Of a stretch of DNA of 64,000 bases, positions 1,688-8,733 are shown one piece after another. Below the pieces are notes generated by a model. The model searched no databases. It had not been told where the DNA came from and saw only the letters and a list, made by a program, of their open reading frames with translations. Numbering within the stretch: the first letter of the stretch is position 1; every line of letters begins with the position of its first letter. The stretch spans positions 874,864-938,863 of the forward strand of contig NZ_CP019333.1 of the NCBI RefSeq assembly GCF_002163875.1, in the 5' to 3' direction. Position numbers and translations under genes: made by a program. Source of the stretch: Gilvibacter sp. SZ-19. GTDB lineage: Bacteria > Bacteroidota > Bacteroidia > Flavobacteriales > Flavobacteriaceae.

Positions 1688-3139
1688 ATGAAAACCAAGT
1701 ACTTCGATCTAATCGATCAAACCTATGTATTCCCTCAAAAGGAATTTCAACTAAAAAATAACCAGCTTCAATTTCACGGAATTGACCTAATGAAGCTTAT
1801 CGCAGAGCACGGTGCACCACTAAAGTTCACCTACCTGCCCAAGATATCAGAGAACATCAATCTGGCTAAGGATTGGTTTGCCCAGGCATTTGAGAAACAC
1901 AACTACCCAGGCAAATACCACTACTGTTATTGCACCAAGAGCTCGCACTTTAAGCATGTGTTGGACGAGGCGCTAAAGAACGATATTCACATAGAGACCT
2001 CATCGGCCTTTGATATGGACATAGTGAACCATTTGAAAGCCAGCGGTAAAATACACAACGACACCTTTGTACTGTCTAACGGATTTAAACGCGACCGTTA
2101 CATTCAGAACATCGCAGACCTCATTAATAGCGGACACCAAAACTGTATCCCTATTATAGACAATTACGAAGAGATCAACTTGCTGAGTCAGGCCATCGAT
2201 ACCAATTATAAAATTGGCATTCGAATCGCTTCAGAAGAGGAGCCTAAGTTCGAGTTCTACACTTCTCGTCTTGGGATCGGATACAAGAACATTGTGCCAT
2301 TTTACGAGCAGACCATAAAGAACGACCCTAAGGTGGAGCTTAAAATGCTACACTTTTTTATCAATACAGGAATTCGCGATACCGCATACTATTGGAACGA
2401 ACTTCTAAAATGTCTTAAGGTATATATCGCCCTGAAGAAAGTTTGCCCAAGTTTGGACAGCTTGAACATAGGCGGCGGATTCCCGATCAAGAACTCATTG
2501 GCATTTGAGTACGATTACGCCTATATGATAGACGAGATCGTAAATCAGATAAAGACTGCCTGCGACGAAGCCGGAGTTGCTGTTCCAAACATCTTTACCG
2601 AGTTTGGCAGTTTTACCGTTGGCGAAAGCGGAGGCGCTATTTACGAGGTGCTGTATCAAAAGCAGCAGAACGACCGCGAAAAATGGAACATGATCAACTC
2701 CTCGTTCATCACCACACTTCCAGACACATGGGCCATCAATAAACGGTTCATTATGATGGCCGTAAACCGCTGGAACGACAGTTATGAGCGTGTACTTCTG
2801 GGAGGACTCACTTGTGACAGCGACGACTACTACAACTCAGAGCAGCACCTCAATGCCATTTATTTACCCAAGTTCAGCAAGACCAAACCGCTCTATATCG
2901 GATTTTTCAATACCGGCGCCTATCAAGAGACCATTGGTGGTTACGGCGGATTGCAGCACTGCTTGATTCCGCAGCCAAAACATTTATTGATACAACGCGA
3001 CGAAAACCAAGAATTGCAGGTAAGCGTTTTTGCAGAACAACAAAAATCAGAAGACTTTTTAAAGATTTTGGGATACCAAAACTCCGCAGCGGAAAAGCAG
3101 AACGCTACAGAAACTACTTGGGCCCAACTTTATTCTTAA
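1688..3139 (+). CDS. speA: Arginine decarboxylase, PLP fold type III (short SpeA-like form)
   Basis: Decarboxylates arginine to agmatine, the entry step to putrescine in this cluster. Seen in the sequence: the PLP-lysine segment YCYCTKSSHF near residue 80, the glycine loop LNIGGGFPIKNS near residue 260 that would hold the PLP phosphate, EFGSFTVGESGG near residue 305, and the CDSDDYY motif near residue 378 typical of the alanine-racemase-fold decarboxylases. It has 483 residues against roughly 630-660 for enterobacterial SpeA, matching the shorter Bacteroidota form. Agmatinase follows at once (6-bp gap to its ATG), which supports arginine over other substrates. Diaminopimelate decarboxylase is less likely because of length and context. 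Regulation is probably through the long structured leader. Confidence 0.88.
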   Translation: MKTKYFDLIDQTYVFPQKEFQLKNNQLQFHGIDLMKLIAEHGAPLKFTYLPKISENINLAKDWFAQAFEKHNYPGKYHYCYCTKSSHFKHVLDEALKNDIHIETSSAFDMDIVNHLKASGKIHNDTFVLSNGFKRDRYIQNIADLINSGHQNCIPIIDNYEEINLLSQAIDTNYKIGIRIASEEEPKFEFYTSRLGIGYKNIVPFYEQTIKNDPKVELKMLHFFINTGIRDTAYYWNELLKCLKVYIALKKVCPSLDSLNIGGGFPIKNSLAFEYDYAYMIDEIVNQIKTACDEAGVAVPNIFTEFGSFTVGESGGAIYEVLYQKQQNDREKWNMINSSFITTLPDTWAINKRFIMMAVNRWNDSYERVLLGGLTCDSDDYYNSEQHLNAIYLPKFSKTKPLYIGFFNTGAYQETIGGYGGLQHCLIPQPKHLLIQRDENQELQVSVFAEQQKSEDFLKILGYQNSAAEKQNATETTWAQLYS

Positions 3140-3144
3140 TAACA

Positions 3145-4086
3145 ATGAAAACCAAAACAACCTTTGCCGGAATCCCGGCAGAATTCGCCGGATACGATTC
3201 GGCCAGTGTAGTACTATTGCCAGTTCCTTATGACGGAACCAGCAGTTGGATCAAAGGAGCAGATAAAGGGCCACAAGCCTTTTTACACGCTGCCGAGAAC
3301 ATGGAACTTTACGATATCGAGACCGATACGGAAGTCTATCGCCAAGGGATCTTCTTAAACGAACCTCTTGACGGTTTTGAGCGCCCAGAAGATATGGTGC
3401 AACAGGTGTACAACGCCACCAAAAAGCACTTGCACAAACGCAAGTTTATTACCCTTATGGGTGGCGAACACAGCATTTCTATTGGTGCTATGCGCGCTTG
3501 TAATGAAATGTTCGAAGACCTAACCGTATTGCAATTGGACGCCCATGCGGATCTGCGCGCTGTTTACGAAGGCAGCCCTTACAATCACGCTTGCGCCATG
3601 CACGAGATAAACCAAACTGCCAATTTGGTACAGGTTGGAATCCGCAGTATGGATATTTCTGAAAAAGCAGAGATGAACGAAGACAATGTATTCTTTGCTC
3701 ATGACATGGCTAACAATGACGATTGGATGGAAGAGGTAATGGCCTGTATGACAGACAATGTCTATATCACCGTGGACTTGGACGCTTTAGATCCTTCTAT
3801 TATGCCAGCGACAGGTACTCCTGAGCCTGGTGGACTATTCTGGTACGAGACTTTGGAATTCTTACAGAAGGTATTTAGAGATAAGAACGTAGTTGGCTTT
3901 GACTTGGTGGAGCTGTGTCCTATGCCAGGGCAACAAGCTTCTGAATTCCTCGCAGCAAAGCTGTACTACAAAATGTTGAGCTATAAGTATGCCGACAGTC
4001 CTGCAGACGATCAGGAAGAAGGTGGCTACTACAAAGAAGAAAAGAATCTACAAAACGCATTTGACGATGACTACGATGAGTACTAA
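3145..4086 (+). CDS. speB: Agmatinase (ureohydrolase family)
   Basis: Hydrolyses agmatine to putrescine and urea using a binuclear manganese centre. All metal-ligand motifs are intact: GGEHSIS near residue 115, DAHADLR near 140, and TVDLDALDPSIMP near 215. At 313 residues it has normal family length. I chose ATG 3145, just past the stop of the decarboxylase, over an in-frame TTG at 3118, because homologues start close to KTTFAGIPAEFAGYDSA. The C-terminal ~20 residues are very acidic (DDDYDEY). The end overlaps the next gene by 11 bp, indicating translational coupling. Pairing with arginine decarboxylase favours agmatinase over arginase or formiminoglutamase. Confidence 0.9.
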   Translation: MKTKTTFAGIPAEFAGYDSASVVLLPVPYDGTSSWIKGADKGPQAFLHAAENMELYDIETDTEVYRQGIFLNEPLDGFERPEDMVQQVYNATKKHLHKRKFITLMGGEHSISIGAMRACNEMFEDLTVLQLDAHADLRAVYEGSPYNHACAMHEINQTANLVQVGIRSMDISEKAEMNEDNVFFAHDMANNDDWMEEVMACMTDNVYITVDLDALDPSIMPATGTPEPGGLFWYETLEFLQKVFRDKNVVGFDLVELCPMPGQQASEFLAAKLYYKMLSYKYADSPADDQEEGGYYKEEKNLQNAFDDDYDEY

Positions 4087-5050
4087 GGGTTCTATCAGAA
4101 ACTTTATAGAAGATCATTTCTTGCACTTCAATGCTGCGGCCCTGGTAGATGCTGCCAAGGCATACGAGCAGCAGTTGGAAGATGGTCACAAGATGTTGGT
4201 ATCCTTAGCGGGAGCTATGAGTACTGCGGAGCTGGGCAAAAGCTTGGCTCCGATGATCCGCGCGAATAAGATCCACTTCATTTCTTGTACTGGGGCCAAC
4301 CTAGAGGAAGACGTGATGAATCTTGTAGCCCACAGCCACTACAAGCGCGTTCCGAATTATCGCGATCTTACTCCGGAGCAAGAATGGGAATTGTTAGAGC
4401 GTGGACTGAACCGCGTTACCGATACCTGTATTCCGGAAGAAGAAGCCTTTAGACGTATTCAAAAACACATCTTTGAACTATGGAAACAGGCAGAAGACAA
4501 TGGAGAGCGTTTGTTCCCGCATGAGTTCCTCTACCGCCTATTACTTTCTGGAGTGATGGAACAATACTACGAGATAGATCCTGAGAATTCATGGATGCTA
4601 GCTGCAGCCAAAGCCAATTTGCCTATGGTAGTTCCGGGTTGGGAAGATTCTACTTTAGGAAACATCTTTGCCAGTTACGTAATGAAAGGAGAGCTCAAGG
4701 CGTCGACCATGAAGTCTGGGATCGAATACATGACCTTCTTAGCCGATTGGTATACCCAGCAAGGTGAAAAAGGAGTGGGATTCTTCCAGATTGGTGGAGG
4801 TATTGCTGGCGATTTTCCGATCTGTGTGGTACCTATGCTTTATCAGGATATGGAGCGCACCGACACCCCATTTTGGAGCTATTTCTGCCAGATCAGTGAT
4901 TCCACGACCAGCTACGGATCTTATTCTGGAGCTGTTCCCAACGAAAAGATCACTTGGGGAAAACTGGGCATAGACACGCCAAAATTCATCATTGAAAGCG
5001 ATGCTACTATAGTGGCACCCTTAGTATTTGCTTACCTATTAAATCAGTAA
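4076..5050 (+). CDS. Deoxyhypusine-synthase-like enzyme, probably a bacterial polyamine synthase
   Basis: Belongs to the deoxyhypusine synthase (DHS) family: NAD-binding segments SCTGANLEEDVMN, VVPGWEDSTLGNIF and FFQIGGGIAGDFP, and a C-terminal TWGKL whose Lys296 aligns with the catalytic lysine of human DHS (the W-G-K of eukaryotic enzymes). Bacteria lack the eIF5A substrate, so the true product is not deoxyhypusine; from knowledge of this family and position after agmatinase, transfer of an aminobutyl group from one putrescine to another to give homospermidine, or a related reaction, is the best inference. Start: ATG 4076 gives MSTKGSIRNF; an ATG at 4067 is also in frame. Cytoplasmic, 324 residues, overlaps agmatinase by 11 bp. 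Confidence 0.85.
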   Translation: MSTKGSIRNFIEDHFLHFNAAALVDAAKAYEQQLEDGHKMLVSLAGAMSTAELGKSLAPMIRANKIHFISCTGANLEEDVMNLVAHSHYKRVPNYRDLTPEQEWELLERGLNRVTDTCIPEEEAFRRIQKHIFELWKQAEDNGERLFPHEFLYRLLLSGVMEQYYEIDPENSWMLAAAKANLPMVVPGWEDSTLGNIFASYVMKGELKASTMKSGIEYMTFLADWYTQQGEKGVGFFQIGGGIAGDFPICVVPMLYQDMERTDTPFWSYFCQISDSTTSYGSYSGAVPNEKITWGKLGIDTPKFIIESDATIVAPLVFAYLLNQ

Positions 5051-5052
5051 TC

Positions 5053-5379
5053 ATGAATACCAACTCAGTACAAAGGATTATAGTCGATTACCAAAAAATG
5101 AAGCCAGAGGTGATGCAGCAATTGCTTGAGCAATACCCAGACGGCTACGACACCGACCAGCTTATTCAATTCAAGAATGCACAAGGTCTTTGGGTGTATT
5201 GTTTAGAGGTGAAGACCCCAGAGACTGTTTACTTGGTAAAAGTGAGCAGAAAATTAGACGAAGCTATAGACAGAGCGCTCGCAGAAGATGACGAGGACGA
5301 AGACTACAGCTATCAGAGTGACGACATAGAGGATAGCGCAGACTATTCGGATTATAGCGATGACTTTGAATACGCATAA
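5053..5379 (+). CDS. Small protein with very acidic C-terminus (108 aa)
   Basis: I do not recognise the family. The first ~75 residues look like a compact folded domain (QRIIVDYQKMKPEVMQQLLEQ, then strands around LWVYCLEVKTPETVYLVKVS). The last 30 residues are almost entirely Asp, Glu, Ser and Tyr (DEDEDYSYQSDD and similar), a disordered acidic tail that could bind a cationic ligand or protein; in a polyamine gene cluster that is a tempting but unproven idea. It begins 2 bp after the DHS-like stop codon and overlaps the next gene by 20 bp, so it is firmly inside the operon. Confidence 0.75.
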   Translation: MNTNSVQRIIVDYQKMKPEVMQQLLEQYPDGYDTDQLIQFKNAQGLWVYCLEVKTPETVYLVKVSRKLDEAIDRALAEDDEDEDYSYQSDDIEDSADYSDYSDDFEYA

Positions 5380-6187
5380 TACTGTGGCAGCAAAGGCCGT
5401 GATTGAAAAACATACGGCCTTTGCCTGCCATATGGCATTGGGATTTCATTTAAAGGAGATCCAACAGAAATGGGCCGATAAGGTATTGCACAGCGATGCC
5501 GACGGCCTAATGCTAGGCTTCGACGAGGGCTTTGCAGCGGTTTTCCGTTATGGCGTAGTGGTGCATTGGAATTTGAATTCAAGGCGCCGTGAAGTTTTGG
5601 AAGCCTATTTAAAGTCTAACAGTAAAGGACTCATGCCTGCTAAAGAGTGGCGCAAAGATCAGTTGCTATTAAGCCTGAACGACAAGAAGACTTTAGTGAA
5701 CCACGAGCAGGTTTGCCTAGACAGTAAAAATCCGGAGACCATTCATTTGGTATTGCTACACTTGGCACAATCTGTGGCTATGGATAGTTTTTCCTTTTGG
5801 TGTGAAAAACTGTTGGAAGACACCCGTATGCACACCACTGAATTGGAGCTGAAAGGTAAATTGAGTCTAAAAGGAACCCCGCTTAAAAAATACATTGGCA
5901 AGGTACTCAACCTCAAAAACAAGGTAGCGGAGAACTTGTATATCATCGATGCTCCGGATCTGGTCTGGGACGATATGGCCTTGGAAGAACTGCACAAAAA
6001 ATTGGTGCTGAAATTCGACCTTAAAGACCGCTACCGAAGCATACAGGAACAACTCAATATTGTAAAAGAGAATTTAGATCTCTTTAAGGAACTGAGCTTT
6101 CACAAAGAGAGTAGTATCCTCGAATGGATCATCATCATCTTGATCGCTGTCGAGATTGTAGACCTCTTTATTCTAAAAATATTCTAA
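5360..6187 (+). CDS. RMD1/YagE family protein (DUF155) with C-terminal membrane anchor
   Basis: The 275-residue protein has the arrangement of the RMD1/YagE (DUF155) family: an N-terminal alpha/beta region with FAAVFRYGVVVHWN near residue 57, a helical middle with LLEDTRMHTTELELKGK and VLNLKNKVAENLYIIDAPDLVWDD near 150-210, and a C-terminal hydrophobic helix ESSILEWIIIILIAVEIVDLF that would anchor it in the inner membrane. The family includes yeast Rmd1/Rmd8 and mitochondrial relatives; no biochemical activity is established to my knowledge. The start at 5360 lies inside the preceding gene, suggesting coupling. Link to polyamines is contextual only. Confidence 0.75.
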   Translation: MTLNTHNTVAAKAVIEKHTAFACHMALGFHLKEIQQKWADKVLHSDADGLMLGFDEGFAAVFRYGVVVHWNLNSRRREVLEAYLKSNSKGLMPAKEWRKDQLLLSLNDKKTLVNHEQVCLDSKNPETIHLVLLHLAQSVAMDSFSFWCEKLLEDTRMHTTELELKGKLSLKGTPLKKYIGKVLNLKNKVAENLYIIDAPDLVWDDMALEELHKKLVLKFDLKDRYRSIQEQLNIVKENLDLFKELSFHKESSILEWIIIILIAVEIVDLFILKIF

Positions 6188-6203
6188 TCCCTATTAGCAA
6201 CCC

Positions 6204-7619
6204 ATGATTTCAACTGTTGCACCGGGGACTTTTGAGCCGGAAAACCACTGGTATGAAAAGTCTCTAAATGCTACCATTCACCCAATGGTAAGCTATTTTC
6301 TTAACCTAAATCCGAAGCAGATCGTAAAACGGTATTGCCATTTAAACCCTACCGTAAAGCCAGAGGAGCTGTTGGAGTTCTTACATTACAAGCCTAAATA
6401 CTATCACTTGTCCGGTGCAGACCTCTTACACGTTACCACGGCGACTGGAAAAAGACAAATGGTGGTCATTGAGAACAACTCTTGCCCCTCCGGTCAGAAA
6501 TCCATGCCACTACTTGACGAGTTTAACGAACAAGGCGGCTACAGCAAGTTCGTAGAGGCGACTATTAAGCCTTTGCTAAAAAAGAAAAAGACCGAGACCT
6601 TGGCGGTGATCTACGACAAGAACCCCATGGAGGCCTCTGGCTATGCCCATGCTCTTGCCGATATGCTGAAGCAAGAAGTTTATCTGGTTCCCTTTTACAA
6701 CAAACAGGCCAACGACCATATTGACACCAGCGGAGATTATGTAAAGATCAAAGTAGATGGCCAATGGAAAACGGTACAGCTGGTGTTTCGCTATTTGACC
6801 CAAAAACCTTGGAACAGACTGCCTATTCACAGTAAAACTGTAATTGTGAACCCAACCATTGTTTGCTTGGCAGGAGGTCGAAACAAAATGATCGCTTCTA
6901 AGGCCTACTCCTTTTTTAATGCTGAATTGGCAGAGAAGAATCTAAAGATCCTTACCCCGCATACTATTTGGGATGTGAATAAGAATGAGATCCCGATCTG
7001 GGTGGCAAACTTTGGTGGAAAGGCAGTAGTGAAGAATCCGTATAGCAACGCTGGTCAGGGCGTATATACCATAGTCAATGAAAAAGAGCTGGAAGATTTT
7101 ATGGCCTTGGAATTTGACTACGATAAATTCATAGTTCAAAGTCTTGTGGGCAACTACAACTGGAGTTCGACCACCGCAGAAGGTATGTTCTACCATGTGG
7201 GCACCATGCCGAACGCCAAAGGAGAATCTTATGTGCTGGATTTTCGCGTGATGATACATGCCACTCCAGAAGGTTATAGACCCCTCTCTATTTACTCCAG
7301 ACGTGCTAAAGCACCGCTAAAAGACAGTTTGACCGACGGAAAATCTTCTTGGGATATTTTGGGAACCAATCTCTCCATTTTAAACGAAGACGGATCTTGG
7401 GGCTCTGACACCAAGAGGCTGCTGCTTATGGAACGCAAAGTATTCAACAATTTGGGGATAGGGCTAGACGACCTGATCGAAGGTTATATTCAAACTGTAT
7501 TGACCTCTATCGCTATAGATAAAATGGCGATCCAACTCATCAGCAGCAAAGGAACGCTGAAAAGAAAACTCTTTAAATCACTCAACGACGATCCGGCGTT
7601 GATCAAAGAAATTATCTAG
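6204..7619 (+). CDS. ATP-grasp-like ligase of unknown substrate
   Basis: A 471-residue protein with ATP-grasp features in its C-terminal half: FGGKAVVKNPYSNAGQGVY near residue 270, resembling the nucleotide-binding strand and glycine-rich loop, then YDKFIVQSLVG, and YVLDFRVMIHATPEG with SIYSRRAKAPL near 345-370, resembling the metal-binding core. ATP-grasp enzymes activate a carboxylate as acyl phosphate and join it to an amine or thiol. The N-terminal ~200 residues are not recognisable to me beyond VVIENNSCPSGQKSMPLLDE. The stop codon abuts the ATG of an AstE/AspA-type deacylase, and polyamine genes lie upstream, so an amide of a polyamine or amino acid is a plausible product. Substrate unknown; the fold call is moderately sure. 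Confidence 0.65.
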   Translation: MISTVAPGTFEPENHWYEKSLNATIHPMVSYFLNLNPKQIVKRYCHLNPTVKPEELLEFLHYKPKYYHLSGADLLHVTTATGKRQMVVIENNSCPSGQKSMPLLDEFNEQGGYSKFVEATIKPLLKKKKTETLAVIYDKNPMEASGYAHALADMLKQEVYLVPFYNKQANDHIDTSGDYVKIKVDGQWKTVQLVFRYLTQKPWNRLPIHSKTVIVNPTIVCLAGGRNKMIASKAYSFFNAELAEKNLKILTPHTIWDVNKNEIPIWVANFGGKAVVKNPYSNAGQGVYTIVNEKELEDFMALEFDYDKFIVQSLVGNYNWSSTTAEGMFYHVGTMPNAKGESYVLDFRVMIHATPEGYRPLSIYSRRAKAPLKDSLTDGKSSWDILGTNLSILNEDGSWGSDTKRLLLMERKVFNNLGIGLDDLIEGYIQTVLTSIAIDKMAIQLISSKGTLKRKLFKSLNDDPALIKEII

Positions 7620-8585
7620 ATGAACACTTTTTACAACATTCCGGTTATAAAACAACTCGACCTAGAAAGTTTTGAAGCCAATAGCCTGAGTTATCGCTGG
7701 CTGCAAATCGTGTCTAACGGAATAGGCCAACCCATATTCATTCCCGTAATGATCGCCAAAGGAAAAGAAGAGGGGCCAACCCTTGGACTAACGGCGGTTG
7801 TTCACGGTAACGAGCTCAATGGAATGTCGGTTATTCAGAAGGTTTTTGCCGAGCTAGACTTGGATAAACTATCTGGGACTTTAGTTGGGGTTCCTGTTAT
7901 GAACATACCTTCGATACTGCTCAACGAGCGCCGTTTTCTGGACGGTGCAGATCTAAACCGTATCATGCCCGGAAAGAAAGACGGGAACCGTTCTCAAGTT
8001 TATGCCCACCGGATAGTAAATCGGATCGTAAAGCATTTCGATTATATGCTAGATCTGCACACGGCGAGCTTTGGGCGCATCAACTCCTTTTATGTTCGGG
8101 CCGACCTCTCTTCTAAGATTGCATATCAGTTGGCTTGTATACAGAATCCGCAGATCATTCTCAATGCACCGCCCAAAGATGGAACCCTTCGTGGCGCTGC
8201 CGCAGACTACGGTATAGATGCCATAACGGTAGAGGTTGGCGACCCAGATCGATTTCAAAAAGGCATGATCCGTTCCGGACTTTCTGGGGTGTTCAACACC
8301 ATGGCCTATTTGGGAATGTACGAAACCAAAATTGAGCAAGAAGAGGAGAAGCCGATCATCTGTAAACGATCTTATTGGATCTACTGTGATAAAGGAGGTA
8401 TTGTGCAGGTGCATACCAAGCTGACCCAAAAACTCAAAAAAGGCGATCACATTGCTACCGTGCGCAATGTTTTTGGCGAAGTGGTCAAAGAATATTACGC
8501 CCCAGAAAAAGGTGTGGTCATAGGTCAAAGTGTGAATCCAGTAGGACAGACCGGGAGTCGTCTGATCCATTTAGGCATTGTATAG
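7620..8585 (+). CDS. Succinylglutamate desuccinylase / aspartoacylase family zinc hydrolase
   Basis: Zinc carboxypeptidase-fold (M14 clan) deacylase: zinc ligands in VHGNELNGMSV (His and Glu, residues ~60-64) and DLHTASFGR (His near 142), a catalytic Glu in ITVEVGDPDRF near 203, and a C-terminal beta domain (residues ~250-320) as in AstE/AspA proteins. These enzymes remove acyl groups from amino acids or related amines. At 321 residues it is normal length. It starts on the base after the TAG of the ATP-grasp gene, so the two are co-translated. The two may form and cleave the same amide bond. A strong terminator follows, ending the cluster. Confidence 0.82.
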   Translation: MNTFYNIPVIKQLDLESFEANSLSYRWLQIVSNGIGQPIFIPVMIAKGKEEGPTLGLTAVVHGNELNGMSVIQKVFAELDLDKLSGTLVGVPVMNIPSILLNERRFLDGADLNRIMPGKKDGNRSQVYAHRIVNRIVKHFDYMLDLHTASFGRINSFYVRADLSSKIAYQLACIQNPQIILNAPPKDGTLRGAAADYGIDAITVEVGDPDRFQKGMIRSGLSGVFNTMAYLGMYETKIEQEEEKPIICKRSYWIYCDKGGIVQVHTKLTQKLKKGDHIATVRNVFGEVVKEYYAPEKGVVIGQSVNPVGQTGSRLIHLGIV

Positions 8586-8614: not shown

Positions 8615-8656
8615 AAACGCTCAGATTCAAAAAAGTTGAATTTTGAGCGTTTTTTC
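8615..8656 (+). terminator. Terminator closing the polyamine cluster
   Basis: AAACGCTCA (8615-8623) pairs with TGAGCGTTT (8644-8652), with an inner ATTCAA/TTGAAT stem, followed by a T-run. Confidence 0.88.
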
Positions 8657-8733
8657 GTTAAAAACAACCCAAAATTGGCCATTTTCTTGCTTTTTTGATC
8701 GATTTTTTTATGTTTTTATTAAAATCCGATTGA

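Follow-up and report, generated by a model that had tools for sequence, protein, structure and literature searches.

The region investigated here is a stretch of 64,000 nucleotides from Gilvibacter sp. SZ-19 (contig NZ_CP019333.1, positions 874,864 to 938,863), hereafter called the window, and within it a group of seven genes which carries polyamine enzymes together with an ATP-grasp ligase (ATPG) and a zinc deacylase (DEAC). The latter two form a separable module that recurs beside polyamine genes in other genomes. The seven open reading frames (ORFs) all lie on the + strand between positions 1688 and 8585 and are closely packed, with intergenic gaps of 5, -20, 2, -20, 16 and 0 bases from gene 1 to gene 7; the initial annotation had described a seven-gene cluster with overlaps or small gaps, and both the ORFs and the gaps bear this out. 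The genes and the element that follows them are:

1688..3139, + strand: ADC, type III arginine decarboxylase-like protein dependent on pyridoxal phosphate (PLP), 483 amino acids (aa); Pfam PF02784 (Orn_Arg_deC_N), E 1.2e-13
3145..4086, + strand: AGM, agmatinase, 313 aa; PF00491 (Arginase), E 3.3e-63
~4067..5050, + strand: DHS, deoxyhypusine-synthase-like enzyme; PF01916 (DS), E 2.6e-40
5053..5379, + strand: small acidic protein, 108 aa; only a chance-level Pfam match, E 0.17
5360..6187, + strand: RMD1, DUF155 (RMND1/YagE-type) protein, 275 aa; PF02582, E 4.3e-29
6204..7619, + strand: ATPG, ATP-grasp ligase of an unnamed family, 471 aa; AlphaFold model and fold matches
7620..8585, + strand: DEAC, AstE/AspA-type zinc deacylase, 321 aa; PF24827 (AstE_AspA_cat), E 7.4e-30
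8616..8657, + strand: terminator-like hairpin and T-run 3′ of DEAC; fold -15.2 kcal/mol

For AGM the ATG at 3145 was chosen by us as the start, the listed ORF opening at 3118. DHS, whose listed ORF opens at 3989, starts at 4067 or 4076 and overlaps AGM. The hairpin was not listed by a simple terminator scan and was recognised by folding and by alignment with the sister species. Profile matches agreed with the families previously assigned to the ADC, agmatinase, DHS-like, DUF155/RMD1 and AstE/AspA-type proteins, and the first three of these families support the polyamine pathway that had been proposed for the cluster.

The ligase/deacylase pair in a sister species and in other genomes

Genome G001 belongs to the same genus as the window genome, and its DHS is 91% identical. 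Its polyamine locus (L179) is syntenic on both sides, comprising the upstream genes, ADC, AGM, DHS and RMD1, followed by the sigma factor gene of the window; the acidic gene, which the gene caller missed in L179, was found between DHS and RMD1 by tblastn (L006). ATPG and DEAC are missing from this locus. No match to ATPG was found anywhere in the G001 genome, and DEAC was represented only by a 28% paralog. The stretch separating RMD1 from the sigma factor gene in L179 aligned with the DNA 3′ of the window DEAC, and a homologue of the terminator follows RMD1 there, with a fold of -17.6 kcal/mol as against -15.2 kcal/mol in the window. As G001 keeps the five other genes, the terminator and the flanks without the pair, ATPG and DEAC constitute a separable module. 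In the window the pair is placed after RMD1, the last core gene, and before the operon's terminator. This position argues for co-transcription, in which ATPG and DEAC would be transcribed together with the polyamine genes. The presence/absence pattern fits a gain in the window lineage or a loss in the sister equally well. Among 60 near genomes, ATPG was found in two and DHS in 31, the window's own genome being included in both counts.

A comparison of gene order for the last four genes, all of which had been placed in one operon with the polyamine genes, gave a divided result: the acidic gene and RMD1 were linked to the polyamine operon, while ATPG and DEAC were separable from it. The acidic protein and RMD1 accompany the polyamine operon, not the ATPG/DEAC module. 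Both had been proposed as parts of a conjugate-forming system, the acidic protein as its carrier. These proposals are not supported, since both genes are kept in the same-genus operon that lacks the ligase and the deacylase, and since no conserved attachment residue was seen in the acidic protein. An alignment of 26 acidic proteins showed a conserved core of about 65 residues and a variable acidic tail, which differed in length and end residues. LysW-type carriers have a conserved C-terminal attachment residue, and none was seen in the 26 sequences. No Pfam match of the acidic protein rose above chance; its structure model, of middling quality (predicted local distance difference test, pLDDT, 72.5), matched no PDB fold at E 0.001. 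The acidic gene lay beside DHS in 18 of 28 loci from other genomes without an ATPG match (the loci reach about 1.5 kb past DHS), and genes of the acidic family were found directly upstream of ATPG in L084, L102, L132 and L143, even with DHS non-adjacent. A carrier role was rejected because of this conservation pattern and because of the occurrence in operons without the ligase. A small glyoxalase/VOC-like protein was also observed in the polyamine operon of relatives (L180:6920-7417, L181:6919-7332 and L098:7440-7853; those of L180 and L181 were named by eye), its gene adjoining RMD1 or lying downstream of the acidic gene.

To collect further relatives of ATPG, a genome collection was scanned with a three-sequence ATPG alignment, and the best 80 of 230 confirmed relatives were kept. 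These came mostly from Saprospiraceae and their kin; nearest to the window were Tenacibaculum and a Dokdonia metagenome-assembled genome (MAG). With 17 loci from other genomes the total was 97, two duplicates were set aside, and 94 of the remaining 95 gave an ATPG ORF, the exception being L172, in which the gene is detected by tblastn. Within 6 kb of ATPG in these 94 loci, many of which end early at contig ends, DEAC was present in 68, a GshB-like ligase gene (c2) in 60, ADC in 25, AGM in 20 (two of them weak paralogs), DHS in 20 and the acidic family in 19. The c2 protein matched Pfam GSH-S_ATP (E 1.5e-27), and its profile matched E. coli glutathione synthetase 1gsa (E 2.3e-30). The usual order of the module was ATPG-c2-DEAC, with the genes mostly touching; c2 is usual in Saprospiria, and the window and four Tenacibaculum loci showed ATPG-DEAC without c2. 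Neighbours were at most 20 bases apart or overlapping in 42 of 51 cases for ATPG-c2, 48 of 54 for c2-DEAC and 13 of 15 for ATPG-DEAC, counts in which overlaps are perhaps overstated because starts were taken as the first ATG/GTG/TTG. The second ATPG copy of genome G036 is directly followed by two EamA-type carriers (L080:6894-10223), and one EamA-type carrier gene directly follows DEAC in L155. In the class sample, ATPG was found in 16 of 395 genomes, again including the window's own. A fusion of GNAT and carbon-nitrogen hydrolase domains (about 510-540 aa) also recurred near ATPG (L090, L094, L097, L105, L116, L123, L138, L140 and L145), in several loci near ADC.

Polyamine genes were located within 6 kb of ATPG in 26 of the 94 loci, or in 14 of the 49 with full flanks. 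The former count was corrected from 28 by dropping L138 and L142, whose agmatinase-like neighbours are 34-35% paralogs. The module lay downstream or upstream in line with the polyamine genes, divergent from them or split around them, and in L081 ATPG lies between AGM and DHS. Altogether 19 order/strand strings were recorded (21 before the two weak cases were dropped), some of which differ only through contig ends. On a quick ATPG tree, in which 36 of 92 inner branches are weak, the linked state required at least 15 changes, nine of them forced by starred branches, compared with a shuffled mean of about 20; linkage was therefore gained or lost repeatedly, yet is partly inherited. Even samples of the class and the order were used to avoid picking. 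In these, 40 genomes hold both genes (42 ATPG genomes minus two without an ADC match), and 10 of the 40 had ATPG and ADC no more than 6 kb apart, where 0.12 were expected; the order sample alone gave 5 of 29, where 0.08 were expected, both chance figures ignoring shared descent. The tie between a ligase/deacylase pair and polyamine genes, suggested initially for the window, is thus a recurrent one.

The ligase and the deacylase

The AlphaFold model of ATPG (pLDDT 91.0, predicted template modelling score, pTM, 0.93) confirmed the ATP-grasp fold that had been assigned to this protein of 471 residues. Foldseek returned 34 PDB chains at E 0.001 or better, headed by 3n6x, a putative glutathionylspermidine synthase (E 6.4e-10), and then by eukaryotic glutathione synthetases. 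VIA-align, by which Foldseek candidates are re-ranked, placed 3k1t, a putative gamma-glutamylcysteine synthetase, clearly at the top (Z 18.0, root mean square deviation (rmsd) 4.1, 331 aligned), with ArgX/LysX (Z 14.6 and 14.1) and E. coli Gss (Z 14.1) below it. The motif K277-x-P-x-x-N-A-G-Q-G and the residues D346, R348 and N389 were invariant in 69 aligned sequences, which are a selection; the lysine, the glycine-rich loop and the Asp/Arg/Asn residues are those expected of ATP-grasp enzymes, and by analogy the first two would bind ATP.

The window ATPG matched no Pfam family at E up to 5. Of the 69 members, at most three matched any one Pfam model of a ligase or ATP-grasp family. Pfam GshA (PF08886) was matched by none of the 69 at E up to 5, a search in which the HMMER filters drop most weak matches. 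GSP_synth was absent from the 17 Pfam families that the 69 members matched, the likeness lying in the fold alone. Sequence comparison of ATPG with the PDB gave no meaningful match, and a sequence-level relation to GshA was rejected on the Pfam and PDB results together. Weak NCBIfam matches were obtained to MptN (55 of 69 members, best E 1.4e-4) and RimK (51 of 69, best E 2.3e-4), all below the cut-offs, and no match to ATPG was found in plasmid and phage records. The ATP-grasp family of ATPG has no name in the Pfam or NCBIfam copies searched.

DEAC was aligned with relatives, 32 sequences being chosen from 65 with the window included. The putative zinc/catalytic residues H62, E65, H147 and E205, roles which we assume from AspA/AstE, were invariant in all 32. 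N113 was likewise present in 32 of 32, and position 114 was R in 14, among them the window, and H in 18. The N-R pair presumably binds the substrate carboxylate in the AstE/AspA family, and the variation after N113 therefore suggests that the acyl group may differ from aspartate or succinate. The best NCBIfam match of DEAC was DoeB, below the cut-off; its PDB profile matches were 3cdx and 3na6, followed in third and fourth place by the DoeB structures 6twl and 6twm.

The polyamine enzymes and the amine

ADC scored below the cut-offs of the NCBIfam arginine decarboxylase (SpeA) models (162.6 of 369 and 150.4 of 624.1 bits). Among solved structures it comes nearest to biosynthetic arginine decarboxylases, with 3n2o (E 1.5e-22) as the closest chain. 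AGM exceeded the NCBIfam equivalog cut-off (TIGR01230, 227.1 bits vs 174.3). Alignment with solved DHS chains placed the active-site lysine of the window DHS in a WGK motif, at position 300 (numbered from base 4064). DHS also matched, below the cut-offs, the NCBIfam models for homospermidine biosynthesis (116.8 of 450 bits) and for 1,9-bis(guanidino)-5-aza-nonane synthase (E 1.5e-22). DHS would be a putative homospermidine synthase of the SpeY type. PMC9992855 describes bacterial DHS-like SpeY as converting putrescine to homospermidine, and PMC8570120 reports sym-homospermidine as the major polyamine of two Flavobacterium type strains, consistent with the genus description. An agmatine-homocoupling enzyme is described for homospermidine synthesis in Thermus (PMC10981699); because of this enzyme and of the match to the aza-nonane synthase model, the order of the homospermidine steps is uncertain. 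In three DHS genomes without a close agmatinase, a gene of the arginase family with 32-35% identity adjoins DHS (G384:C1:145349-145969, G440:C328:1627-2226 and G363:C29:116928-117551), and possibly encodes another agmatine hydrolase.

To determine which amines are available to ATPG, 58 ATPG genomes were investigated (17 from genome searches and 41 of the 80 scan loci, L101 being left out), many of which are MAGs of unstated completeness. DHS was found in 28 of them and ADC in 53; 23 had an agmatinase of at least 53% identity, and 29 contained neither DHS nor such an agmatinase. In L133 and L146, ADC is the sole polyamine gene in the module, and in the respective genomes (G473 and G478) DHS was not found and the only arginase-family match was at 37%. 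Homospermidine, the product of DHS, as an obligate acceptor is weakened by the presence of DHS in only 28 of 58. Agmatine is the simplest common amine, because 53 of 58 genomes have ADC and half of them all (29/58) have neither DHS nor a close agmatinase, although ADC is nearly ubiquitous in the order anyway. It would be the best shared amine, with putrescine or homospermidine used where the genes allow.

Proposed amide chemistry and its alternatives

The reading that we tentatively favour is that of a two-part unit, whose ATPG/DEAC pair would form and cleave an amide of agmatine or of agmatine-derived products. In the first part (ADC, AGM, DHS, the acidic protein and RMD1) arginine would be converted to agmatine, then putrescine and, by inference, homospermidine. 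The second part would be the separable ligase/hydrolase module between RMD1 and the terminator of the operon. ATPG may activate a carboxylate with ATP, perhaps that of glutamate or of a short gamma-glutamyl peptide, and join it to an amine, most likely agmatine or a polyamine derived from it. DEAC would hydrolyse the same or a related amide, so that the conjugate could be both made and broken. In Saprospiria c2 may add a further residue, and the EamA carriers downstream in L080 and L155 may export the product. A new class of conjugates, consisting of agmatine, putrescine or homospermidine and a glutamyl-type acid or short peptide joined by ATPG, extended by c2 in Saprospiria, exported by EamA carriers in some lineages and broken down by a dedicated DEAC, is possible though doubtful.

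Several observations weigh against this reading. Among the full-flank loci, 35 of 49 ATPG genes are not beside polyamine genes, and part of the linkage is inherited. Co-occurrence of ATPG and ADC is no evidence, since nearly every genome of the order has ADC (145 of 148), and linkage alone counts. No DHS-like gene was found in 30 of the 58 tested ATPG genomes, and c2 is missing at the window locus, the window genome having only distant relatives of it (best 29%). The Foldseek TM-scores of ATPG are modest (0.39-0.43 in the top rows), and its fold does not reveal the substrate. DEAC relatives with 47-50% identity are found away from ATPG in G027 and G035, and in G036 at a separate location. Reaction and substrates of the pair are what we infer from the observed families, fold, presence/absence and recurrent linkage.

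The closest known counterparts of such a conjugating pair are E. coli Gss and the hss-gss clusters, in which an ATP-grasp ligase is likewise linked to polyamine genes and paired with an amide hydrolase. The make-and-break logic of the window pair resembles that of the two halves of the E. coli glutathionylspermidine synthetase/amidase, and the ATPG fold matched Gss (rmsd 4.2, 275 aligned, at the Z given above). The hydrolase half of Gss is a cysteine amidase, whereas the hydrolase here is an AstE/AspA zinc enzyme; ATPG also differs in having no Pfam glutathionylspermidine synthase match, and the polyamine genes here are ADC, agmatinase and DHS-like genes, not HSS. To our knowledge, the bacterial polyamine conjugates made by ATP-grasp enzymes are glutathionylspermidine and its kin. 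What is new is that an ATP-grasp ligase paired with a zinc hydrolase is found repeatedly next to polyamine genes, its family unnamed in the databases searched. If the favoured reading is true, a second ligase family, unmatched in sequence to the glutathionylspermidine enzymes, would form a new branch of polyamine chemistry. The linkage spans Flavobacteriaceae and Saprospiria and narrows the enzymes and substrates worth assaying to a small set. A precedent is the clustering of hss with gss, which PMC9992855 interprets as a potential for glutathionylhomospermidine. A limited literature collection contained no paper joining ATP-grasp with deoxyhypusine synthase and agmatinase or with homospermidine, none on ATP-grasp with succinylglutamate desuccinylase and polyamine, and nothing useful about Saprospiraceae or Lewinella polyamines; neither GshA nor polyamine occurs as a term in PMC4431377.

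Alternatively, ATPG and c2 could act as GshA-like and GshB-like enzymes that make a glutathione-like gamma-glutamyl peptide or thiol, with DEAC trimming or recycling it and the nearness of ADC reflecting shared arginine/glutamate regulation. We regard this as unlikely, although the best VIA fold match of ATPG is the putative gamma-glutamylcysteine synthetase 3k1t of Methylobacillus flagellatus, which we take to be classed in Pfam GshA, PF08886, and c2 matches GSH-S_ATP and glutathione synthetase. The 3k1t protein is only 12% identical to ATPG and was not among the 50 Foldseek matches listed, the GshA profile was matched by 0/69 members, c2 is not found beside ATPG in the window or in the four Tenacibaculum loci, and the repeated linkage to ADC is left unexplained.

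That ATPG modifies a protein or carrier in the manner of RimK or LysX/ArgX, with DEAC releasing the product in LysW style, seems quite improbable. The LysX/ArgX-LysW system consists of an ATP-grasp enzyme, a zinc hydrolase and an acidic small protein, as does the window unit; ArgX/LysX came next in the fold ranking (Z 14.6), and weak MptN and RimK matches were obtained. The acidic protein of the window, however, has neither a conserved attachment residue nor a conserved C-terminus, is present in operons without ATPG, and is not tied to ATPG, its family lying within 6 kb in only 19 of 94 loci. It is highly improbable that the amide serves as an N-acylated intermediate (protected, converted and deprotected) in polyamine or arginine metabolism instead of being an end product: the best NCBIfam match of DEAC, below the cut-off, is DoeB, which deacetylates N-acetyl-2,4-diaminobutyrate, and DoeB structures match too, but, c2 aside, the loci have no converting enzyme in common between ATPG and DEAC. 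That the linkage arose by accident, through horizontal transfer into an operon with good expression, would suit the patchy spread (2/60 near genomes, 16/395 in the class), but is hardly credible and already disfavoured given ADC linkage in 10/40 genomes vs 0.12 expected, on both strands and in many orders.

Two further ligase/hydrolase pairs were observed in the window's own genome. They belong to other ligase families, and no polyamine gene was recognised within the 3.5-3.8 kb examined. Near C1:1.43 Mb (L178) a RimK-like gene of 294 aa overlaps an AstE-like gene of 323 aa (26% to DEAC), and near C1:2.93 Mb (L177) a GshB-like ATP-grasp gene of 342 aa abuts a hydrolase that we take to be an N-formylglutamate amidohydrolase; apart from the AstE-like one, these names are assumed from reading the sequences.

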